Assembly (NCBI RefSeq): GCF_024749045.1
Contig: NZ_CP087184.1
Span: forward strand, 372,001-436,000
Direction of reading: 5' to 3'
Source of the DNA: Pseudomonas sp. B21-028
GTDB taxonomy: Bacteria; Pseudomonadota; Gammaproteobacteria; Pseudomonadales; Pseudomonadaceae
Length of the DNA stretch: 64,000 nt
Shown: piece after piece, positions 31,624 through 45,079 of the stretch
Layout of the letters: each line of letters opens with the position of its first letter
Position numbering within the stretch: position 1 is the first letter of the stretch
Made by a program: the position numbers and the translations under genes
Notes under the pieces: model-generated
What the model saw: the letters and a program-made list of their open reading frames with translations, nothing else
The model's database searches: none
What the model was told of the DNA's origin: nothing

Positions 31624-31639
31624 TGTATATACATATACA
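31624..31639. promoter_or_regulatory. Candidate HutC operator between hutF and hutC
   Basis: TGTATAT-AC-ATATACA is a perfect inverted repeat with seven-base arms. It shares the TGTA...TACA core and two-base centre with the palindrome at the hutU promoter, which is expected of sites for one GntR-family repressor. Confidence 0.65.
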
Positions 31640-31704: not shown

Positions 31705-32454
31705 GTGCCGACTCCGCCTGCCAAACCGCCGCTGGCCGCAAACATGGGTGACAGTCCGGCGCCCTTGTATGCCCGCGTCAAACAGATGATCACCCAGCAG
31801 ATCGACAGTGGAAACTGGCCTCCCCATTACCGTGTGCCCTCGGAAAGCGAGCTGGTCAATCAGTTGGGCTTCAGCCGCATGACCATCAACCGTGCCCTGC
31901 GGGAAATGACCGCCGACGGCTTGTTGGTGCGCATGCAGGGCGTCGGCACGTTCGTGGCCGAGCCCAAGAGCCAGTCCGCGCTGTTCGAAGTGCACAACAT
32001 CGCCGACGAGATCGCCTCTCGCGGCCATCGCCACACCTGCAAGGTCATCACCCTGGAAGAGGAGGCCGCCGGCTCCGAGCGCGCCCTGGCCCTGGACATG
32101 CGTGAGGGCCAGAAGGTGTTCCACTCGCTGATCGTGCATTTCGAGAACGACATTCCGGTGCAGATCGAAGACCGCTTCGTCAATGCGCTGGTGGCGCCCG
32201 ACTACCTCAAGCAGGACTTCACCCTGCAGACACCCTATGCCTACCTGAGCCAGGTCGCGCCGCTGACCGAAGGCGAGCATGTGGTGGAAGCGATCCTCGC
32301 CGAGCCGAATGAATGCAAGCTACTGCAGATTGAAAAGGGTGAGCCGTGCCTGCTGATTCGCCGTCGGACCTGGTCCGGGCGTCAACCGGTCACCGCCGCG
32401 CGGCTGATTCACCCCGGTTCCCGTCATAGTCTGGAAGGGCGGTTTCACAAGTGA
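31705..32454 (+). CDS. hutC: Histidine utilisation repressor HutC
   Basis: A 249-residue GntR-family regulator of the HutC subfamily. The N-terminal winged helix (PLYARVKQMITQQIDSGNWP, then VPSESELVNQLGFSRMTINRAL) is followed by a UTRA effector domain (residues about 95-240) with LVRMQGVGTFVAEP at the junction. Urocanate is the known inducer in the family. The start is GTG with AGGGA upstream; a later Met14 (MGDSPAPLYARV) is a possible alternative. It overlaps hutD by four bases. Confidence 0.95.
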   Translation: MPTPPAKPPLAANMGDSPAPLYARVKQMITQQIDSGNWPPHYRVPSESELVNQLGFSRMTINRALREMTADGLLVRMQGVGTFVAEPKSQSALFEVHNIADEIASRGHRHTCKVITLEEEAAGSERALALDMREGQKVFHSLIVHFENDIPVQIEDRFVNALVAPDYLKQDFTLQTPYAYLSQVAPLTEGEHVVEAILAEPNECKLLQIEKGEPCLLIRRRTWSGRQPVTAARLIHPGSRHSLEGRFHK

Positions 32455-33380: not shown

Positions 33381-33394
33381 CTTGTACATACAAG
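33381..33394. promoter_or_regulatory. Candidate HutC operator at the hutU start point
   Basis: CTTGTA-CA-TACAAG is a perfect inverted repeat with six-base arms, starting five bases after the -12 element. A repressor bound here would block the start point. Both this and the hutF-hutC site are followed by GACGT. Confidence 0.75.
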
Positions 33395-33498: not shown

Positions 33499-35187
33499 GT
33501 GACCGACGCTACCCGCAAACCCGAAAAATACCGTGACGTTGAAATTCGCGCCCCTCGCGGAAATACGCTGACCGCCAAGAGCTGGCTGACTGAAGCGCCG
33601 CTGCGGATGCTGATGAACAACCTCGACCCGCAAGTGGCCGAGAATCCCAAGGAACTGGTGGTCTACGGTGGCATCGGTCGCGCGGCGCGCAACTGGGAGT
33701 GCTACGACAAGATCGTCGAGAGCCTCACCAACCTGAACGACGACGAAACCCTGCTGGTGCAATCCGGCAAGCCGGTGGGCGTGTTCAAGACCCACACCAA
33801 TGCCCCGCGCGTGCTGATCGCCAACTCCAACCTGGTACCGCACTGGGCCAGTTGGGAACACTTCAACGAACTCGACGCCAAGGGTCTGGCGATGTATGGC
33901 CAGATGACCGCCGGCAGCTGGATCTACATCGGCAGCCAAGGCATCGTGCAGGGTACCTATGAAACCTTCGTCGAAGCCGGTCGCCAGCATTACGACTCCA
34001 ACCTCAAGGGTCGCTGGGTCCTGACCGCCGGCCTGGGCGGCATGGGTGGCGCACAACCGCTGGCCGCGACGCTGGCAGGAGCCTGCTCGCTGAACATCGA
34101 ATGCCAGCAGGTCAGTATCGATTTCCGTCTCAAGACCCGTTACGTCGACGAACAGGCCACCGACTTGGATGACGCCCTGGCCCGCATCGAGAAATACACC
34201 GCCGAAGGCAAGGCAATCTCCATCGCACTGTGTGGCAACGCCGCTGAAATCCTGCCGGAAATGGTCCGTCGCGGTGTGCGTCCGGACATGGTCACCGACC
34301 AGACCAGCGCCCACGACCCCCTCAACGGTTACCTGCCGGCCGGCTGGACCTGGGACGAATACCGTGCCCGCGCCAAGACCGAACCCGCCGCCGTGGTGAA
34401 AGCCGCCAAGCAGTCGATGGCGGTGCACGTGAAAGCCATGCTGGCCTTCCAGAAAATGGGCGTGCCGACCTTCGACTACGGCAACAACATCCGCCAGATG
34501 GCCCAGGAAGAAGGCGTCGAGAATGCCTTCGACTTCCCGGGTTTCGTACCAGCTTATATCCGTCCGCTGTTCTGCCGCGGCATCGGTCCGTTCCGCTGGG
34601 CCGCGCTGTCGGGTGACCCGCAGGACATCTACAAGACCGATGCCAAGGTCAAGGAACTGATCCCCGACGACGCCCATCTGCACAACTGGCTGGACATGGC
34701 TCGCGAGCGCATCAGCTTCCAGGGTCTGCCGGCACGTATCTGCTGGGTTGGCCTGGGTCAGCGCGCGAAGCTGGGCCTGGCGTTCAACGAAATGGTGCGC
34801 AGCGGCGAGTTGTCGGCGCCGATCGTGATCGGTCGCGACCATCTGGACTCCGGTTCCGTGGCCAGCCCCAACCGTGAAACCGAATCCATGCAGGATGGTT
34901 CCGACGCGGTCTCCGACTGGCCACTGCTCAACGCCTTGCTCAACACCGCCAGCGGCGCGACCTGGGTGTCGCTGCACCACGGCGGCGGCGTTGGCATGGG
35001 CTTCTCCCAGCACTCGGGCATGGTGATTGTCTGCGACGGTACCGACGAAGCGGCCGAGCGGATTGCCCGCGTACTGCACAACGACCCGGGTACCGGCGTG
35101 ATGCGTCATGCCGATGCCGGTTACCAGATCGCTATCGATTGCGCCAAGGAGCAGGGGCTGAATCTGCCGATGATTACCGGCAAATAA
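33499..35187 (+). CDS. hutU: Urocanate hydratase
   Basis: A 562-residue NAD+-dependent enzyme that converts urocanate to 4-imidazolone-5-propionate. Family motifs include [29 protein letters not shown], the NAD-site region [31 protein letters not shown] and the C-terminal [13 protein letters not shown]. The start is GTG with GAGGAG eight bases before it; this gives the standard N terminus [20 protein letters not shown]. It is the first gene of the main hut transcript, with the sigma-54 promoter about 125 bases upstream. Confidence 0.98.
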
Positions 35188-35338: not shown

Positions 35339-36805
35339 ATGGCCACCAGCAGCACACGTGCAAGTAGCAAGCCGTTGATCGAGAAACGTTCGATCGACTA
35401 CATCCCGGAAGCGGAGAGGCATGGCCGTTTGTTGAGCCAGTTCACCCTCTGGATGGGGGCCAACCTGCAGATCACTGCCATTGTCACCGGTGCATTGGCG
35501 GTGGTGCTGGGCGGTGATGTGTTCTGGTCGTTGATCGGTTTGTTGATCGGCCAACTGCTCGGCGGTGGCGTCATGGCGCTGCATGCCGCGCAAGGACCCA
35601 AGCTTGGCCTGCCGCAGATGATCTCCAGCCGGGTGCAGTTCGGGGTCTATGGCGCGGCCATCCCGATCGTGCTGGTGTGCCTGATGTACCTGGGTTTCAC
35701 CGCGACGGGAACCGTGCTTTCCGGCCAGGCGCTGGGCCAGCTGTTTGGCGTCAGCGACAGTGTCGGCATCCTCATTTTCGCCAGTGTCATCGTACTGGTC
35801 ACAGTGCTCGGTTATCGGGTGATCCACTTCATTGGCCGAGTCGCCAGCGTTATCGGTGTGATTGCCTTCGTTTACCTGTTCGCTCGCCTGATCAGCCAGA
35901 CGGACGTTGGCGCACTCCTGCAAATCCGCCATTTCAGCTGGAGCAGCTTCCTGCTCGCGGTGTCGCTCGCGGCATCCTGGCAGATCGCCTTCGGCCCCTA
36001 CGTGGCTGACTATTCGCGTTACCTGCCGAGCAAGACGTCCTCGGTGAAAACCTTTTTCGCCGCGGGCGCAGGTTCGGTCATCGGCGCCCAGGTGGCGATG
36101 ATCCTCGGCGTGTTTGCCGCTGCCTCGGCCAACGGGCAGTTCGCGGGTCACGAAGTGGCCTACATCGTTGGCCTGGGAGGGGCCGGCGCCACCGCTGCGT
36201 TGCTGTACTTCAGCATCGCGTTTGGCAAGGTCACCATTTCCACGCTGAACTCCTACGGCAGCTTCATGTGCATTGCCACCATCATCAGCGGTTTCCGTGG
36301 CCAGTTGAACGTCACGCGCTTGCAGCGTCTGCTCTTCGTGCTGGTCATTGTCGGCGCCGCGACCCTGATCGCGCTGCTCGGCCAGCACTCGTTCCTCGGT
36401 GCCTTCAAGTCTTTCATCCTGTTCCTGCTGGCGTTCTTTACGCCCTGGAGCGCGATCAACCTGGTGGATTACTACTGCATCACTCGCGAGCGCTATGACG
36501 TGCCGGCGCTGGCCGACCCGAACGGTCGCTACGGTCGTTGGAACGCCCTGGGCATCAGCATTTACACCTTGGGCGTACTGGTCCAATTGCCGTTCATCGC
36601 CACCAAGTTCTATACCGGGCCGCTGGTGGCAGCGATGGGGGGCGTGGATATCTCGTGGATCATCGGCCTGGTGGTTCCGGCGGTGTTGTATTACGTCGCA
36701 GCGAAGAAGTGGCACAGCGCTGTACCTGATCAATTGATCCTGCCGGTCGAGCAGGCAACGGTTGACGCACAACCGAGCAGGGCGGGCCGCATCCAAGCGG
36801 TCTGA
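35339..36805 (+). CDS. hutT: NCS1-family permease of the hut locus (probable urocanate transporter)
   Basis: A 488-residue cytosine/purine-type permease with about twelve membrane segments. The N terminus has the NCS1 pattern IDYIPEAERHGRLLSQFTLW, then GANLQITAIVTGALAVVLGG and GPKLGLPQMISSRVQFGVYG. The position directly after hutU and before the ABC genes matches the permease described as the urocanate transporter in P. fluorescens. Substrate assignment rests on that context. A separate APC-type histidine permease, which related strains keep between the two hutH genes, is not present in this window. Confidence 0.85.
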   Translation: MATSSTRASSKPLIEKRSIDYIPEAERHGRLLSQFTLWMGANLQITAIVTGALAVVLGGDVFWSLIGLLIGQLLGGGVMALHAAQGPKLGLPQMISSRVQFGVYGAAIPIVLVCLMYLGFTATGTVLSGQALGQLFGVSDSVGILIFASVIVLVTVLGYRVIHFIGRVASVIGVIAFVYLFARLISQTDVGALLQIRHFSWSSFLLAVSLAASWQIAFGPYVADYSRYLPSKTSSVKTFFAAGAGSVIGAQVAMILGVFAAASANGQFAGHEVAYIVGLGGAGATAALLYFSIAFGKVTISTLNSYGSFMCIATIISGFRGQLNVTRLQRLLFVLVIVGAATLIALLGQHSFLGAFKSFILFLLAFFTPWSAINLVDYYCITRERYDVPALADPNGRYGRWNALGISIYTLGVLVQLPFIATKFYTGPLVAAMGGVDISWIIGLVVPAVLYYVAAKKWHSAVPDQLILPVEQATVDAQPSRAGRIQAV

Positions 36806-36874: not shown

Positions 36875-37843
36875 ATGAGATCGAACAAGACCCTGCTGAC
36901 CATGTTGCTTTCCATGGGCCTGCTGACCAGCGCCGGTGCCACGCAGGCGGCGGGCTGGTGTGAGTCGGGTAAACCGGTGAAATTCGCCGGCCTGAACTGG
37001 GAAAGCGCCATGTTGCTGACCGACGTCCTGCAAGTGGTGTTGGAAAAAGGCTACGACTGCAAGACCGACAGCCTGCCGGGCAATTCCATCACCATGGAGA
37101 ACGCCCTGGGCAGCAACGACATCCAGGTGTTTGCCGAAGAGTGGGTCGGCCGCAGCGAGGTCTGGAACAAGGCCGAGAAGGCCGGCAAAGTGGTCGGCGT
37201 CGGCGCGCCGGTGGTGGGCGCCATCGAGGGCTGGTACGTGCCGCGCTACGTGATTGAAGGCGACGCCAAGCGCAAGCTGGAAGCCAAGGCCCCGGGCCTG
37301 AAGAACATTGCCGACCTGGGCCAGTACGCCGCCGTGTTCAAGGACCCGGAAGAACCGTCCAAGGGGCGTTTCTACAACTGCCCGGCCGGTTGGACCTGTG
37401 AGCTGGACAACAGCGAAATGCTGAAAAGCTATGGCCTGGAAAAAACCTACACCAACTTCCGTCCAGGTACCGGCCCGGCGCTGGATGCGGCGGTGTTGTC
37501 GAGCTACAAGCGTGGCGAGCCGATCCTGTTCTACTACTGGTCGCCAACCCCGCTGATGGGCCAGGTGGACCTGGTCAAGCTGGAAGAAAAGCCGGGCGTG
37601 GATAAAAGCGTAAGCATCAAGGTCGGCCTGTCCAAGACCTTCCACGACGAGGCTCCGGAACTGGTGGCGGTGCTGGAAAAGGTCAACCTGCCCATCGATA
37701 TCCTGAACCAGAACCTGGGACGCATGGCCAAAGAGCGGATCGAGTCGCCGAAACTGGCGAAGATCTTCCTGAAGGAACATCCTGAAGTCTGGCACGCCTG
37801 GGTGAGCGCAGACGCTGCCAAGAAAATCGACGCGGCCCTGTAG
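36875..37843 (+). CDS. hutX: ABC transporter substrate-binding protein HutX
   Basis: A 322-residue periplasmic binding protein of the glycine-betaine/proline (OpuAC) type. The signal peptide is MRSNKTLLTMLLSMGLLTSAG onwards, ending near ATQAA, followed by WCESGKPVKFAGLNWESAML. In the family the ligand pocket is built from tryptophans; EWVGRSEVW and IEGWYVPRY supply candidates. In hut loci this system imports histidine. TTAGGAGCG precedes the ATG. A strong hairpin follows the stop, before hutW. Confidence 0.9.
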   Translation: MRSNKTLLTMLLSMGLLTSAGATQAAGWCESGKPVKFAGLNWESAMLLTDVLQVVLEKGYDCKTDSLPGNSITMENALGSNDIQVFAEEWVGRSEVWNKAEKAGKVVGVGAPVVGAIEGWYVPRYVIEGDAKRKLEAKAPGLKNIADLGQYAAVFKDPEEPSKGRFYNCPAGWTCELDNSEMLKSYGLEKTYTNFRPGTGPALDAAVLSSYKRGEPILFYYWSPTPLMGQVDLVKLEEKPGVDKSVSIKVGLSKTFHDEAPELVAVLEKVNLPIDILNQNLGRMAKERIESPKLAKIFLKEHPEVWHAWVSADAAKKIDAAL

Positions 37844-37914: not shown

Positions 37915-38766
37915 ATGTTTCCCGAAAGCTTTACCTTTTCCATCGCCGACTGGGTCAACGGTTGGGTCGACGCCCTGGTGACGAATTATGGCGATGTGTT
38001 CCGGCACATCTCCGACACCCTGCTGTGGGCCATCGTCAATCTCGAAGGCCTGCTGCGCATGGCGCCCTGGTGGTTAATGCTGGCCATCGTCGGTGGCGTG
38101 GCCTGGCACGCGACCCGCAAGGTCGTGGCCACGGCGGTGATCGTCGGCCTGCTGTTTCTGGTGGGCGCGGTGGGCCTGTGGGACAAACTGATGCAGACCC
38201 TCGCGCTGATGCTGGTGGCGACGCTGATCTCGGTGCTGATCGGCATTCCGCTGGGCATTCTCTCGGCACGCAGCAATCGCCTGCGTTCGGTGCTGATGCC
38301 GTTGCTGGACATCATGCAGACCATGCCGAGCTTCGTGTACCTGATTCCGGTGTTGATGCTGTTCGGCCTGGGCAAGGTCCCGGCGATCTTCGCCACCGTG
38401 ATCTACGCCGCGCCGCCGCTGATTCGTCTGACCGACCTGGGCATCCGCCAGGTAGACGGTGAGGTGATGGAGGCCATCAACGCTTTCGGTGCCAACCGCT
38501 GGCAACAACTGTTCGGCGTGCAACTGCCCCTGGCCCTGCCAAGCATCATGGCCGGGATCAACCAGACCACCATGATGGCCCTGTCGATGGTGGTCATCGC
38601 CTCGATGATCGGCGCCCGTGGCTTGGGCGAGGACGTGCTGGTGGGCATCCAGACCCTCAACGTCGGACGCGGCCTGGAAGCCGGGCTGGCGATCGTGATT
38701 CTCGCCGTGGTCATCGACCGCATTACCCAGGCCTATGGTCGTCCTCGGCATGAGGTGAGCAAATGA
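37915..38766 (+). CDS. hutW: ABC transporter permease HutW
   Basis: A 283-residue inner-membrane protein of the ProW type with about seven membrane segments. The ATPase-contact (EAA) loop reads [40 protein letters not shown] and [21 protein letters not shown] are family-typical. It shares four bases with hutV, so permease and ATPase are translationally coupled. The substrate is inferred from the locus (histidine). Confidence 0.92.
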
Positions 38767-39593
38767 ACAACGCAGCCATCAGCAAAATCGAAGTCAAGAA
38801 CGTCTTCAAGATTTTCGGCAACCGGTCCAAGGACGCCCTCGACCTGATCCGCCAGAACAAGACCAAGGACCAGGTGCTGGCCGAAACCGGCTGCGTGGTC
38901 GGTGTGAACGACCTGTCGTTGAGCATCGGTACCGGCGAGATCTTCGTGATCATGGGCCTGTCCGGCTCGGGCAAATCCACCCTGGTGCGGCACTTCAACC
39001 GCCTGATCGATCCCACCAGCGGCGCGATCCTGGTGGACGGCGAAGACATTCTGCAACTGGACATGGATGCCCTGCGTGAATTCCGTCGGCACAAGATCAG
39101 CATGGTGTTCCAGAGCTTCGGCCTGCTGCCCCACAAGAGCGTGCTGGACAACGTCGCCTACGGTTTGAAGGTCCGTGGCGAAAGCAAGCAGGTATGCACC
39201 GAGCGCGCGCAACACTGGATCAACACCGTCGGCCTGAAGGGTTACGAAAACAAATACCCGCATCAGCTTTCCGGTGGCATGCGCCAGCGCGTGGGCCTGG
39301 CCCGCGCCTTGGCCGCGGACACCGACATCATCCTGATGGACGAAGCCTTCAGTGCCCTCGACCCGCTGATCCGCGCCGAAATGCAGGACCAGCTGCTGGA
39401 ACTGCAAAAGACCCTGCACAAGACCATCGTCTTCATCACCCACGACCTCGACGAGGCCGTGCGCATCGGCAACCGCATTGCGATTCTCAAGGACGGCAAG
39501 CTGATCCAGGTCGGCACGCCCCGGGAGATCCTGCATTCGCCGGCCGATGAGTATGTCGATCGGTTCGTGCAGCGGCGGGCTGCGGTGGTGTAG
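38763..39593 (+). CDS. hutV: ABC transporter ATP-binding protein HutV
   Basis: A 276-residue ATPase of the ProV type. Walker A is GLSGSGKST, the Q-loop [14 protein letters not shown], the signature [15 protein letters not shown] and Walker [16 protein letters not shown], with the switch His in [13 protein letters not shown]. The long N-terminal extension ([20 protein letters not shown]) is typical of the glycine-betaine/proline subfamily. Unlike OpuAA/ProV there is no C-terminal CBS pair: the protein ends soon after the helical subdomain. Confidence 0.93.
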
Positions 39594-39606
39594 GGCCAGT
39601 CACAGT

Positions 39607-39738
39607 CGTGGCGAGGGGATTTATCCCCGCTGGGCTGCAAAGCAGCTCCAAACCAGGCAATGGAATCAGCCTGACACAATTGAATAGAAAGTATTGGGGT
39701 TGCTTCGCAGCCCAGCGGGGATAAATCCCCTCGCCACA
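39607..39738. repeat. Intergenic palindrome, family B
   Basis: GTGGCGAGGGGATTTATCCC with an inverse right arm, and inner GGGCTGCAAAGCAG / TTGCTTCGCAGCCC arms, between hutV and the first histidase-family gene. Confidence 0.8.
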
Positions 39739-39773
39739 AATGTATTGGCAACTTTATTTGTATGAGGCTTTAG

Positions 39774-41297
39774 ATGCCCCAGGCTGAAAAAATCATCATC
39801 GCCGACGCCCCCCTGCGTTGGCAGGACGTGGTCGCCGTCGCCCGCTTCGGTGCCGAGCTCGAGCTGTCGGCCCAGGCCTGGGCGCGGATCGACAATGCCC
39901 AGGCCATCGTCCAGCGCATCGTCGAAAGCGGCGAGCGCGCCTATGGCGTCAACACCGGCCTGGGCGCCTTGTGCAATGTTTCGCTCAAGGATGAACAACT
40001 CAGCCAGCTGTCGCGCAACACCCTGCTCAGCCATGCCTGTGGCGTGGGCGCGCCGCTGGCGGACGAACAGACCCGGGCGATTCTCTGCGCCGCGATCCTC
40101 AACTACAGCCAGGGCAAGTCCGGCATTCATCGTCGGGTGGTCGAGGCCTTGCTGGCGCTGCTCAATCGCGGCATCACCCCGCAAGTGCCGTCCCAGGGGT
40201 CGGTGGGTTACCTGACCCACATGGCCCACATCAGCATTGCGCTGCTGGGCGTCGGCCAGGTCAGCTATCGCGGCCAGATCGTTGCGACGCAACAGGCCCT
40301 GGCCGCGGAAGGCCTGCAACCGGTCCAGCTGGGGGCGAAGGACGGCCTGTGCCTGGTCAACGGTACGCCGTGCATGACCGGCCTCAGTTGTCTGGCCCTG
40401 GCCGATGCGACGCGGCTGGTGCAATGGGCCGATGTGATCGGCGCCATGAGTTTCGAGGCCCAGCGTGGGCAGATCGCCGCGTTCGACGCCGAGATCATCG
40501 CCCTCAAGCCACACCCCGGCATGCAGCAGGTCGGGGCCAATCTGCGGGCCTTGCTCGACGGCAGCGAAGTCATTGCCGCGAGCCTGGGCATTCGTACCCA
40601 GGATGCCTTGAGCATCCGCTCGATTCCCCAGGTACACGGCGCCGCTCGCGATCAACTGGCCCATGCCCGGCAGCAGATCGAAACCGAACTCAACGCCGCC
40701 ACCGATAACCCGCTGTTGCTGGGTACGCCGGATAACTTCCGGGTCATGTCCCAGGCCAATCCCCACGGCCAGTCGGTTGCCTTGGCGGCGGATCTGCTGG
40801 CGATTGCCATGGCGGAAATCGGCTCTATCGCCGAGCGCCGTCTCGACCGGCTGATCAATCCGCACGTCAGTGGGCTGCCGGCCTTTCTGGTGGCCAACCC
40901 CGGCGTGAACTCGGGGATGATGATCGTGCAGTACGTCGCCGCCTCCTTATGCGCGGAGAATCGCCAATTGGCGCAACCGGCGGTACTGGATAATTACGTG
41001 ACCTCGGGCTTGCAGGAAGATCACCTGAGTATGGGCACCAACGCGGCCCTGAAGCTGCACAGGGCGTTGGAAAACTGCACGCAGATTCTCGCCATCGAAT
41101 ACCTGTTGGCGGCCCAGGCCTTTGAGTTCCTCAAGGCGCAGCGCTTCGGCGCTGGCACCGACCTCGCCTGGAAACTGCTGCGCGAGCACGTGGCTGCCTA
41201 TGACCAGGACCGCTGGCTGGCGCCGGACATTGCCAGCGCCGCCGGGCTCCTTAAAAACCCGAACCTGCTGCATAGCGTGTTACCGAATTTGCATTGA
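39774..41297 (+). CDS. hutH1: Histidine/aromatic ammonia-lyase family protein lacking the MIO triad (HutH1 type)
   Basis: A 507-residue member of the HAL/PAL fold, related along its whole length to the gene that follows. The cofactor loop that reads [16 protein letters not shown] in the neighbour is GSVG-YLTHMAHIS here (residues 142-154). The Ala-Ser-Gly that cyclises to the electrophilic MIO group is deleted exactly, in frame. The catalytic Tyr of QDPYSLR is Leu in QDALSIR. Other active-site regions are kept: YGVNTGLG, SHACGVG, NPLLLG and QEDHLSMG. The frame is intact and well conserved, so this is not a decaying copy. It may be a non-catalytic partner or do other chemistry; ordinary histidase activity is unlikely. 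Confidence 0.85.
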   Translation: MPQAEKIIIADAPLRWQDVVAVARFGAELELSAQAWARIDNAQAIVQRIVESGERAYGVNTGLGALCNVSLKDEQLSQLSRNTLLSHACGVGAPLADEQTRAILCAAILNYSQGKSGIHRRVVEALLALLNRGITPQVPSQGSVGYLTHMAHISIALLGVGQVSYRGQIVATQQALAAEGLQPVQLGAKDGLCLVNGTPCMTGLSCLALADATRLVQWADVIGAMSFEAQRGQIAAFDAEIIALKPHPGMQQVGANLRALLDGSEVIAASLGIRTQDALSIRSIPQVHGAARDQLAHARQQIETELNAATDNPLLLGTPDNFRVMSQANPHGQSVALAADLLAIAMAEIGSIAERRLDRLINPHVSGLPAFLVANPGVNSGMMIVQYVAASLCAENRQLAQPAVLDNYVTSGLQEDHLSMGTNAALKLHRALENCTQILAIEYLLAAQAFEFLKAQRFGAGTDLAWKLLREHVAAYDQDRWLAPDIASAAGLLKNPNLLHSVLPNLH

Positions 41298-41428: not shown

Positions 41429-42961
41429 ATGACTGCTTTAAACCTGATTCCCGGTCAATTGAGCCTGGCTCAATTGCGTGACATCTATCAGCAACCGGTG
41501 ACCCTGAGCCTCGACGCCAGCGCTTCGGCGCAGATCGAAGCCAGTGTGGCGTGCGTGGAGCAGATCCTCGCCGAGAACCGCACCGCCTACGGCATCAACA
41601 CCGGTTTCGGCCTGCTGGCCTCGACCCGTATCGCCAGCGAAGACCTGGAAAACCTGCAGCGCTCCCTGGTGCTGTCCCATGCCGCTGGCGTGGGTGTGCC
41701 GATCAGCGATGCGCTGGTGCGCTTGATCATGGTGCTCAAGGTCAACAGCCTGAGCCGGGGTTTTTCCGGTATTCGCCGGCAGGTGATCGATGCGCTGATC
41801 GCGCTGGTCAATGCCGAGGTCTATCCGCACATCCCCCTCAAGGGCTCGGTCGGGGCTTCCGGCGATCTGGCGCCGTTGGCCCATATGTCCCTGGTGCTGC
41901 TGGGCGAAGGCAAGGCGCGCTACAAAGGTGAATGGCTGCCGGCCGTCGACGCGTTGAAAGTCGCCGGCCTAGCGCCGCTGACCCTGGCCGCCAAAGAAGG
42001 CCTGGCACTGCTCAACGGCACCCAGGTATCCACCGCATTCGCCCTGCGCGGCCTGTTCGAGGGTGAAGACCTGTTTGCCGGTGCCCTGGCGCTGGGCAGC
42101 CTTACGGTAGAAGCCGTGCTCGGCTCCCGTTCGCCATTCGACGCGCGTATCCACGCCGCCCGTGGCCAGAAAGGCCAGATCGATGCCGCCGCTGCGTACC
42201 GCGACCTGCTGGGCGAGCGCAGCGAAGTGTCCGCTTCGCACCAGAACTGCGACAAGGTCCAGGATCCGTACTCCCTGCGTTGCCAGCCGCAAGTGATGGG
42301 CGCCTGCCTGACCCAGTTCCGCCAGGCGGCCGAAGTGCTGGTGATCGAGGCCAACGCTGTGTCGGATAACCCATTGGTGTTCGCCGCCGAGGGCGACGTG
42401 ATTTCCGGTGGCAACTTCCACGCCGAACCCGTGGCGATGGCCGCCGACAACATGGCCCTGGCGATTGCCGAAATCGGCTCCCTGAGCGAGCGTCGCATTT
42501 CCCTGATGATGGACAAGCACATGTCGCAGTTGCCACCGTTCCTGGTGGGTAACGGCGGGGTCAACTCCGGCTTCATGATCGCCCAGGTCACCGCGGCTGC
42601 CCTGGCGAGTGAGAACAAGGCGCTGTCCCATCCTCATTCGGTGGACAGCCTGCCGACCTCCGCCAACCAGGAAGACCACGTGTCCATGGCCCCGGCCGCC
42701 GGCAAGCGCCTGTGGGAAATGGCCGAGAACACCCGTGGCATCCTGGCGGTGGAATGGCTGGCGGCTTGCCAGGGCCTGGATCTGCGCGGCGGCTTGAAGA
42801 CGTCGCCGAAGCTGGAGCAGGCTCGCGGCCTCCTGCGTGCCGAAGTGCCGTTCTATGAAAAGGATCGGTTCTTTGCACCGGACATCAATGCCGCCAGTGA
42901 GCTGTTGGCGAGCCGTTGCCTGAACGAGCTGGTCATGGCGAACCTGTTGCCGAGCCTGTAA
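41429..42961 (+). CDS. hutH: Histidine ammonia-lyase (functional type, HutH2)
   Basis: A 510-residue enzyme that removes ammonia from L-histidine to give urocanate, the first step of the pathway. The MIO-forming Ala143-Ser144-Gly145 is present in [15 protein letters not shown]. The catalytic Tyr281 is in [14 protein letters not shown], and [29 protein letters not shown] and [10 protein letters not shown] are intact. AAAGGAGCA lies six bases before the ATG. The 131-base gap before it has no repeat or clear promoter. It is expected to supply all histidase activity of the locus. Confidence 0.97.
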
Positions 42962-42968
42962 GGGCCCC

Positions 42969-43031
42969 ATCGCGAGCAGGCTCGCTCCCACAGTGGAATG
43001 CGTACCCTGTGGGAGCGAGCCTGCCCGCGAT
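42969..43031. repeat. REP-type inverted pair, family A (one degenerate arm)
   Basis: ATCGCGAGCAGGCTCGCTCC, then GTGGGAGCGAGCCTGCCCGC in inverse order with a single changed base, between hutH and hutI. Confidence 0.8.
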
Positions 43032-43061
43032 TCGATACTGAATGAGACGAGGAAACCCGGG

Positions 43062-44264
43062 ATGAAAACCCTCTGGCAAAACTGCCACGCCGCCACCATG
43101 GCCCAGGGCGTCTACTCGATCATCGAAGATGCCGCCATCGTCACTCAAGGCGAACACATCCACTGGATCGGCCCGCGCGCGGAACTGCCGGCCGGTGACT
43201 ATCCGGCGGTCAACGACCTCAAGGGCGCCTGGGTCACTCCCGGCCTGATCGACTGCCACACCCACACGGTGTTCGGCGGTAACCGCAGCGGTGAATTCGA
43301 ACAGCGCCTGCAAGGCGTCAGCTACGCCGAGATCGCCGCGTCGGGTGGCGGTATCGCCAGTACCGTGCGCGCCACTCGGGCCGCCAGTGAGGACGAACTG
43401 TTCAGCAGCGCTGCCAAACGCCTGAAAAGCCTGATGCGCGACGGCGTGACCACGGTGGAAATCAAGTCCGGTTACGGCCTGGACCTGGCCAACGAACGCA
43501 AGATGCTGCGGGTCGCCCGTCGTCTCGCTGCCGAACTGCCGGTCAGCGTGCGCAGCACCTGCCTGGCTGCCCACGCGTTGCCGCCGGAATACACCGACCG
43601 CGCCGACGACTACATCGAGCACATCTGCGCCGAAATGCTCCCGGCCCTGGCCGCCGAAGGGCTGGTGGACGCGGTGGATGCCTTCTGCGAATACCTGGCG
43701 TTTTCCCCGGCGCAGGTCGAGCGGGTGTTCGTCACTGCGCAGCAGTTGGGCCTGCCGGTGAAACTGCACGCCGAGCAATTGTCATCATTGCACGGTTCGA
43801 GCCTGGCGGCCCGTTACCAGGCGCTGTCGGCGGATCACCTGGAGTTCATGACCGAGGACGATGCCATCGCCATGGCTGAATCCGGCACCGTAGCGGTGTT
43901 GTTGCCGGGGGCGTTTTACTTCCTTCGGGAAACCCAACTGCCGCCGATGGACGCCCTGCGCAAGCACGGCGTGAAGATCGCCGTGGCCAGCGACCTCAAC
44001 CCCGGCACCTCGCCGGCGCTGTCGGTGCGCCTGATGTTGAACATGGCCTGCACCTGCTTCCGGATGACCCCGGAAGAAGCCCTGGCCGGCGCAACGATCC
44101 ACGCCGCCCAGGCCTTGGGCATGGCCCGGACCCATGGTTCGCTGGAGGTCGGCAAGGTGGCGGATTTTGTCGCCTGGCACATCGACCGTCCGGCCGACCT
44201 TGCGTACTGGCTGGGTGGTGAACTGGAAAAACGCGTCGTGCGTCACGGCGTTGAAATCGCTTGA
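43062..44264 (+). CDS. hutI: Imidazolonepropionase
   Basis: A 400-residue metal-dependent amidohydrolase that opens 4-imidazolone-5-propionate to N-formimidoyl-L-glutamate. The start [16 protein letters not shown] is preceded by GACGAGG; the upstream frame begins in the repeat and is rejected. Metal ligands lie in [12 protein letters not shown], in [11 protein letters not shown] and in [13 protein letters not shown]. The stop codon overlaps the ribosome site of hutG, so the two are co-transcribed. Confidence 0.97.
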
Positions 44265-44275
44265 GGAGAATGCTT

Positions 44276-45079
44276 GTGGAGAAGGTCCTGAATTTCACCC
44301 AGGGACGCGTGCCGTTGTTGATCAGCATGCCCCACGCCGGCCTGCGCCTGACCCCGGCGGTGAAGACCGGGTTGATCGATGAAGCCCAGAGCCTGCCGGA
44401 CACCGACTGGCACATTCCCAGGCTCTACGATTTTGCCGCTGAGCTGGGCGCCAGCACCCTGTCCGCCGAGTACTCACGGTTCGTCGTCGACCTGAACCGC
44501 CCCTCCGACGATACGCCGATGTACGTCGGCGCCACCACCGGCCTGTACCCGGCAACGCTATTTGATGGCGTGCCGTTGTTTCGCCAAGGACTGGAGCCCT
44601 CTGCCGAGGAACGGGCCACGTACCTGCAGCAGATCTGGATGCCATATCACCAGACACTGCAACAGGAGCTGGCGCGGCTCAAGGCCGAGTTCGGCTACGC
44701 CTTGTTGTTCGACGCCCATTCGATTCGTTCGGTGATCCCGCACCTGTTCGACGGCAAGCTGCCAGACTTCAATCTCGGTACCTTCAACGGCGCCAGCTGC
44801 GACCCGGTGCTGGCGAGCCAGCTCGAAGCCATCTGTGCCCGTCACGGCGCGTTCACCCATGTGCTCAATGGGCGTTTCAAAGGCGGACACATCACCCGGC
44901 AATACGGCAACCCGGCCGAGAACATCCATGCGGTGCAGCTGGAACTGTGCCAGAGCACCTACATGGAAGAGTTCGAGCCGTTCAACTATCGGCCAGACCT
45001 GGCGGCCCCGACCCGGGTGGTCATCCGGGAGCTGCTCGAGGGGCTGCTGGCCTGGGGGCAGGCGACGCACGGTAAATAA
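44276..45079 (+). CDS. hutG: N-formylglutamate deformylase
   Basis: A 267-residue hydrolase that splits N-formyl-L-glutamate to glutamate and formate, the last step of the HutF branch. Motifs: LLISMPHAGLRLTP, DTDWHIPRLYDF, FVVDLNRPSDD, LLFDAHSIRS and FKGGHITRQYGNP. The GTG at 44276 was chosen because GAGGAG lies about eight bases before it and the N terminus then matches the family (MEKVLNFTQGRVPLL). The ATG at 44270 is too close to that site. It ends the hut locus. Confidence 0.93.
   Translation: MEKVLNFTQGRVPLLISMPHAGLRLTPAVKTGLIDEAQSLPDTDWHIPRLYDFAAELGASTLSAEYSRFVVDLNRPSDDTPMYVGATTGLYPATLFDGVPLFRQGLEPSAEERATYLQQIWMPYHQTLQQELARLKAEFGYALLFDAHSIRSVIPHLFDGKLPDFNLGTFNGASCDPVLASQLEAICARHGAFTHVLNGRFKGGHITRQYGNPAENIHAVQLELCQSTYMEEFEPFNYRPDLAAPTRVVIRELLEGLLAWGQATHGK

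Follow-up and report, generated by a model that had tools for sequence, protein, structure and literature searches.

Two described enzymes of the histidine ammonia-lyase (HAL) fold frame the locus studied here: histidase HutH (EC 4.3.1.3; P. putida structure 1b8f and its variants) and the ergothionase of T. denticola (6s7j/6s7q). In lyases of this fold the 4-methylideneimidazole-5-one (MIO) group, which forms from an Ala/Cys-Ser-Gly triad, makes a good leaving group of a poor one, ammonia, and HAL Tyr280 is catalytic; a quaternary trimethylammonium, by comparison, already leaves well. An excerpt of PMC3903478 describes the MIO-less S153A mutant of a phenylalanine ammonia-lyase as practically inactive, and ergothionase, which takes trimethylamine off ergothioneine, is stated in a passage of PMC13405746 to work without MIO. 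Here we analyse hutH1, a gene of the hut operon in a stretch of 64,000 nucleotides from Pseudomonas sp. B21-028 (NZ_CP087184.1, positions 372,001 to 436,000, forward strand), called the window below, with coordinates counted from its first letter. Its product is a HAL-family protein devoid of the MIO triad, and we think it probable that HutH1 is a catalytically active C-N lyase, independent of MIO, which would convert hercynine (histidine betaine, N-alpha-trimethylhistidine) to urocanate and trimethylamine, with hercynine probably imported by the HutXWV transporter encoded just upstream. The features on which this reading turns are the following.

39774..41297, plus strand: hutH1, MIO-less HAL-family protein of 507 amino acids; intact open reading frame (PF00221, 556.6 bits)
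40197..40235, plus strand: GSVGYLTHMAHIS, the MIO-less site of hutH1, with the ASGD of HAL replaced by the single Tyr146
40608..40610, plus strand: codon for Leu279 of HutH1, at the place of HAL Tyr280
41429..42961, plus strand: hutH2, MIO-bearing histidase of 510 amino acids (TIGR01225, 721.6 bits), with Ala-Ser-Gly at 143-145

The site translates to G142-S-V-G145-Y146-L-T-H-M-A-H152-I-S154, so that HutH1 reads GSVG-Y-L where the Ala/Cys-Ser-Gly triad would stand, and because Ala-Ser-Gly is missing the MIO cofactor cannot form. Pairwise alignment with HutH2, whose A143-S144-G145 correspond to residues 142-144 of P. putida HAL, yields a difference of exactly three residues at this place, and the counterpart of HAL Tyr280 is Leu279 in HutH1 and Tyr281 in HutH2. 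A first-pass annotation of the DNA had read both the missing triplet and the replacement of the catalytic tyrosine by Leu279 from the letters alone, and the alignment agrees on both points, as do the homologues for the first. It had also held that the remaining fold is kept in an intact frame, which the 507-residue reading frame, the PF00221 match and an AlphaFold (AF2) model with the HAL fold (predicted local distance difference test score, pLDDT, 90.9) confirm. YGVNTGLG and QEDHLSMG are both present, and HutH1 even passes the curated histidase profile (TIGR01225, 545.1 bits for a cut-off of 539.15). HutH1 shares with histidase the fold, the residues that we take to form the pocket, the place in a hut operon and some 40% identity (40% with HutH2), and differs from it in lacking Ala-Ser-Gly, hence MIO, and in the exchanges Tyr280 to Leu and Phe329 to Pro. 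The near-complete inactivity of the S153A phenylalanine ammonia-lyase makes it unlikely that HutH1 is a histidase. In SBW25, HutH1 is dispensable for growth on histidine, according to a passage of PMC8871633.

The altered site is constant wherever the gene was found. GSVGYL[TSA]HMAH occurs in 240/240 listed homologues, namely the best 120 of 7487 matches to HutH1 and the best 120 of 7606 to a distant orthologue, and in all 31 orthologues detected among 119 Pseudomonadaceae genomes (E < 1e-180, the next matches lying near 1e-103). The same gap is present at 80/80 loci from named genomes, with no stop within the aligned hutH1 frame; YLTHMAHI was one of the six search peptides for these loci, a bias of which the set of 31 orthologues is free. 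The same state in the 240 listed homologues and 31 orthologues rules out an error of sequencing or assembly as well as a recent loss of nine bases in this one strain, readings to which we give essentially no credence. Median omega is 0.071 for hutH1, 0.044 for hutH2 and 0.036 for hutU (pairwise Nei-Gojobori, NG86, on equal-length pairs from 600 drawn among 73 loci with hutH1, hutH2 and hutU, of which 592, 465 and 162 pairs, respectively, entered the medians). hutH1 is under purifying selection. The first-pass annotation had suggested examining whether the gap is universal and under purifying selection, and its supposition that the protein is maintained was right. That HutH1 is a nonfunctional relic of a histidase, as one of the two hutH copies of SBW25 has reportedly been called, seems to us very improbable in view of 80 loci without a stop in the frame, an omega of 0.07 and a motif that does not change across genera. 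In Pseudomonas sp. J380 iron limitation induces both hutH copies (PMC8069873, in part). Few members of the HutH1 clade proper turned up beyond Pseudomonadaceae in the samples searched: a DNA pattern search over 274 genomes of the class matched only the source genome, and P0130, used as query at E 1e-120, matched 2/369.

The gap itself reaches much further. Plasmid genes of Erwinia (71% identity to HutH1), Rhizobium (51%), Agrobacterium (45%), Priestia (45%) and Klebsiella (42%) have the same gap and the same tyrosine, which are common to a wider group across Pseudomonadota and Bacillota, and in trees the block of HutH1 lies far from HutH2. Judged from these sequences, HutH1 did not arise recently from HutH2 by the loss of nine bases, and the first-pass description of a histidase paralogue with an in-frame loss is misleading, given the 40% identity, the separation in trees and the wide sharing of the gap. 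The proteins with this gap and tyrosine (MIO-less-Y) form one clade with support 95/86 when the trait columns and ergothionase are included, and 64/37 in a reduced tree that omits these columns and two long rows, and the monophyly of the entire group is not firm. In the reduced tree the block of HutH1, Pmeg, Rleg and Atu has support 91/93, rising to 100/100 without Pmeg (own_500_L085 was excluded from both trees). As queries, the Rhizobium protein matched 20/299 and the L157 protein, at E 1e-112, 0/299, a result of little weight.

We tabulated 44 proteins in P. putida HAL numbering (25 MIO-less-Y, 18 with MIO, and L129 of another kind). Tyr53, His83, Gln277, Arg283 and Glu414 are kept in 25/25 MIO-less rows, Met382 in 24/25 and Asn195 in 22/25; the window's HutH1 retains all seven, which we take to be the HAL substrate pocket for imidazole and carboxylate. 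On the other side of the site, Tyr280 is replaced by Leu, and Phe329 by Pro, Ala, Gly or Cys, in 23/25 MIO-less rows, whereas both are retained in 18/18 MIO rows. HutH1 has lost MIO along with Tyr280 and Phe329, and the pattern suggests that the presumed imidazole and carboxylate part has been kept while the amino-group side was rebuilt. Across 83 rows of the HutH1 clade, Y57, H87, N196, Q276, L279, R282, M383 and E415 are invariant, together with the motif.

Our account of what HutH1 acts on and how, of what each residue does and of HutXWV as the hercynine importer is inferred from this pattern and from the neighbouring genes. The betaine-type ATP-binding cassette (ABC) transporter HutXWV, encoded directly upstream, would import hercynine; the kept histidase pocket would hold its imidazole and carboxylate, the loss of MIO, Tyr280 and Phe329 making room for the N(CH3)3 group; HutH1 would then eliminate trimethylamine to leave urocanate, and HutU, HutI, HutF and HutG would take urocanate on to glutamate. 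The cofactor site would be dispensable in such a reaction because trimethylammonium is already a good leaving group. Among the three guesses of the first-pass annotation, MIO-independent chemistry is the one that gains support, now specified as the elimination of trimethylamine from histidine betaine.

The operon reads hutF (minus strand), hutC, hutD, hutU, NCS1 permease, hutX, hutW, hutV, hutH1, hutH2, hutI, hutG, several of these names being given by homology and position.

31705..32454, plus strand: hutC, repressor gene; open reading frame, 61% identical to the L125 gene carrying GntR and UTRA domains
33383..33392, no strand assigned: TGTACATACA, candidate HutC operator upstream of hutU; pattern match to TGTA-N2-TACA
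33499..35187, plus strand: hutU, urocanase, the proposed next enzyme (PF01175 above cut-off)
35339..36805, plus strand: NCS1-family permease in the hutTu position (PF02133)
36875..37843, plus strand: hutX, OpuAC-type (glycine-betaine family) periplasmic binding protein (PF04069, 202.8 bits)
37915..38766, plus strand: hutW, ABC permease nearest to choline/ProW models (TIGR03416, 292.8 bits, below the equivalog cut-off of 363)
38763..39593, plus strand: hutV, ABC ATPase of the betaine/proline/choline family (TIGR01186 proV, 367.9 bits, above the cut-off of 326.6)
43062..44264, plus strand: hutI; open reading frame 42993-44264, start 43062 chosen, named by position and family knowledge, with homologues beside hutH1 elsewhere
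44261..45079, plus strand: hutG; open reading frame, named by position and family knowledge

HutXWV resembles the quaternary-amine transporters of the ProXWV kind in that all three component families are present and HutX is OpuAC-type with conserved tryptophan. Trp173 and Trp222 of HutX align with W140 and W188 of ProX, which presumably belong to its aromatic cage, and Trp90 is assumed to match ProX W65; Trp90, Trp173 and Trp222 are invariant in 94/94 HutX orthologues. TGTA-N2-TACA, the HutC operator consensus given in a passage of PMC12977541, has one further match in the window, at 31624, and a scan for sigma-70 promoters found 0 where 2.5 were expected. The hutTu product of SBW25 is termed a urocanate transporter in an excerpt of PMC8871633. 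Within the spacer between hutV and hutH1 (39594-39773, 180 bases) lies an inverted sequence of GGGGATTTATCCCC type which, by eye, looks like a repetitive extragenic palindromic (REP) element.

In the 24 loci that we drew (neighbours were recognised against 20 reference genes, so that an unrecognised gene may intervene, and L121 and L141 come from a single genome), the first recognised gene upstream of hutH1 always encodes a transporter: HutXWV in 16, a BCCT carrier in two and SBP3-HisMQP in six. A carrier of betaine kind, HutXWV or BCCT, is upstream in 18/24, and BCCT takes the place of HutXWV next to hutH1 at L117, which matches Halopseudomonas phragmitis, and at L134, from a genome of the same order. 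That one quaternary-amine carrier is swapped for another while the neighbouring enzyme stays the same suggests a betaine as substrate. Beyond Pseudomonadaceae, 7/19 MIO-less genes and 0/40 MIO histidase controls have an OpuAC or BCCT gene within 6 kb (Fisher p 1.5e-4), and the counts become 14/19 and 0/40 when SBP3 is added (p 9e-10). The controls were drawn from the best-scoring PF00221 matches and lean to canonical HutH, and the loci are partly related (L157/L164 and L198/L199 being close kin). In the survey of neighbours, L138 and L232 were classed by a second test.

The neighbours also speak to the product. hutU lies within the fetched stretch of 18/24 loci, and when 20 loci were compared a canonical urocanase (75-89% identical to the window's HutU) was found with the MIO-less genes of L117, L127, L134, L202, L203 and L206. 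A HutC homologue stands beside the MIO-less gene of Rhizobium L125. On a Klebsiella pneumoniae plasmid (L127; OW849409.1 76966-90453) the 13.5 kb fetched hold HutU (87%) and a HutF-family gene that exceeds the curated cut-off, next to HutC-like and HutD-like (Ves) genes; an ABC importer of betaine type is also encoded there, and the MIO-less protein is the only lyase. The linkage to hutU, the HutC homologue and the L127 gene set together make urocanate the most likely product, and hercynine, the trimethyl form of histidine, the most likely substrate. Of the 848 plasmid records that HutH1 matched, 197 are from Klebsiella, part of them of other types.

These neighbourhoods bear on the other two guesses of the first-pass annotation, a sensor of histidine or urocanate and a subunit that modifies HutH2, by which HutH1 would be non-catalytic. 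The lack of MIO and of Tyr280 would suit such a role, as would the direct adjacency of hutH1 and hutH2 in the window, L117 and L146-L149, but at other loci the two genes are separated or on opposite strands, and no hutH2 was found in the fetched stretches of L124, L125, L127, L138-L140, L142, L201 and L202 (an MIO histidase may lie elsewhere in those genomes), so that a modifying subunit is poorly supported. Nor would a scaffold need Y57, H87, N196, Q276, R282 and E415, all invariant in 83 homologues, and a sensor is poorly supported given these invariant pocket residues, the presence of a hutC gene and the way in which the gene tracks a transporter. We therefore regard a non-catalytic HutH1 as improbable. 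That HutH1 is an MIO-independent lyase but cleaves some other aromatic amino acid, quaternary or N-methylated, such as dimethylhistidine or another betaine, has a slightly better but still small chance. MIO-less lyases on Rhizobium and Agrobacterium plasmids (L157 and L164), in which HAL Asn195 is replaced by Ser, with OpuAC, CoA-transferase and enoyl-CoA hydratase neighbours, point to other aromatic betaines within the group; HutH1, however, keeps the histidase residues H83, N195, M382 and E414, and its gene lies in a hut operon with a HutC-operator-like site. The L157 and L164 neighbourhoods also include 3-hydroxyacyl-CoA dehydrogenase genes, and the two gene sets are possibly a pathway for another aromatic betaine.

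The comparison with ergothionase brings in a further alternative. Ergothionase and HutH1 both have the HAL fold, lack MIO, carry Leu at HAL 280 and keep Tyr53, His83, Gln277, Arg283 and Glu414, and the elimination of trimethylamine proposed for HutH1 is the same. At 29% identity they differ in that ergothionase has SSIGEGD as the remnant of its MIO site, keeps Phe329 and uses a thione substrate. In the tree 6s7j groups with L129, apart from HutH1, both being long branches whose join is unsure, and its specific shared columns number 11 with the HutH1 clade versus 10 with MIO lyases. Ergothionase looks like a lineage separate from HutH1, for which ergothionase by descent is not established. HutH1 might nevertheless share its chemistry by acting on ergothioneine, or its sulfonate, to give thiourocanate. 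We consider this unlikely: besides the lack of any special kinship with 6s7j, HutU and HutI in the window's operon are canonical, no divergent urocanase accompanies them, and the sole divergent urocanase of the genome (2419888, 47%) sits elsewhere with an MIO-bearing lyase. A catabolic pathway for ergothioneine sulfonate in Agrobacterium radiobacter is cited in an excerpt of PMC13405746. On Agrobacterium plasmid pAt15955 (L126) an MIO-less relative is accompanied by an ABC transporter of betaine type and by a urocanase homologue, presumably that pathway; unlike the operon in the window, L126 has a divergent urocanase (48%) and an oxidoreductase.

Several further observations concern relatives of the gene. 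A second kind of altered MIO site, one residue shorter, reads GSIGAAD, GSLGAAD or GSIGASD (L129, 5980-7485; L206, 4513-6051; L229, 11682-13676); the best PDB match of L129 is the T. denticola ergothionase, and at L206 the one-residue-missing lyase and an MIO-less-Y gene lie alongside OpuAC, BCCT, hutI and hutU. The source genome holds three urocanase and five HAL-family genes (extra loci L081, L083, L165 and L167), with two pairs outside the window at 2626581-2629258 and 2419888-2424160: one has a urocanase 98% identical to HutU and an MIO histidase, and the other the divergent urocanase and an MIO lyase that groups with the lyase of Burkholderia plasmid L155, a pair that possibly serves a modified histidine. 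At L135, L136, L137, L141, L145 and L150-L153, from other Pseudomonadaceae genera, the region upstream of hutU includes another gene for an OpuAC-type binding protein, 47-54% identical to HutX. PA5093, whose annotation we take to be histidine/phenylalanine ammonia-lyase, is presumably the HutH1 orthologue. A passage of PMC12772324 gives hutG as PA5093, and an extra ABC system in P. aeruginosa is mentioned in an excerpt of PMC8871633. The MIO-less lyase genes of L119 (4455-6023, minus strand) and L140 (8661-10226, minus strand) are preceded by SBP3-type ABC genes and directly followed by a class III (formaldehyde) dehydrogenase gene, which would fit a further demethylation of trimethylamine.

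A number of points weigh against a hercynine trimethylamine-lyase. HAL position 386 is Lys in ergothionase 6s7j, presumably a catalytic residue, and Tyr in HutH1, while two MIO-less proteins, L119 and L131, retain Tyr280 and Phe329. Five of the 19 MIO-less loci beyond Pseudomonadaceae (L130, L131, L161, L200 and L205) lack a transporter of the three families within 6 kb of the gene. Thirteen more MIO genes, which were not among the controls, include two, L155 and L203, that do lie near one, and a class III formaldehyde dehydrogenase is also found near one MIO control (L236). No hutU was seen in the fetched stretch of 6/24 loci (L124, L125, L138-L140 and L142). Finally, HutXWV has a part in histidine uptake according to a passage of PMC8871633, which, together with the 6/24 loci where SBP3-HisMQP, of polar amino-acid type, stands instead of a betaine-type carrier, makes a non-betaine substrate possible.

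Hercynine occurs in fungi and actinobacteria, to judge from titles cited in PMC7653990. In a soil-crust study, an excerpt of PMC4595634 lists the histidine betaine of a cyanobacterium among metabolites that no tested isolate used, many of which were depleted in the intact crust. We found no report of a hercynine lyase in the open-licence PMC literature, and one may exist elsewhere. If our reading of HutH1 is true, it names an enzyme for the use of hercynine and a possible bacterial source of trimethylamine, the Klebsiella plasmid included. A simple sequence criterion, GSxGY---L and in most cases Leu at 280, separates the proposed MIO-independent betaine lyases from histidases that are annotated alike. 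We see an even chance that the MIO-less group around HutH1 is a widespread family that has gone unrecognised and whose lyases act on betaines of aromatic amino acids independently of MIO; in Pseudomonas, hutXWV-hutH1 would then make hut a pathway for two substrates, histidine and histidine betaine, and sister branches such as L157 and L164, linked to CoA-dependent side-chain degradation, would serve other betaines.
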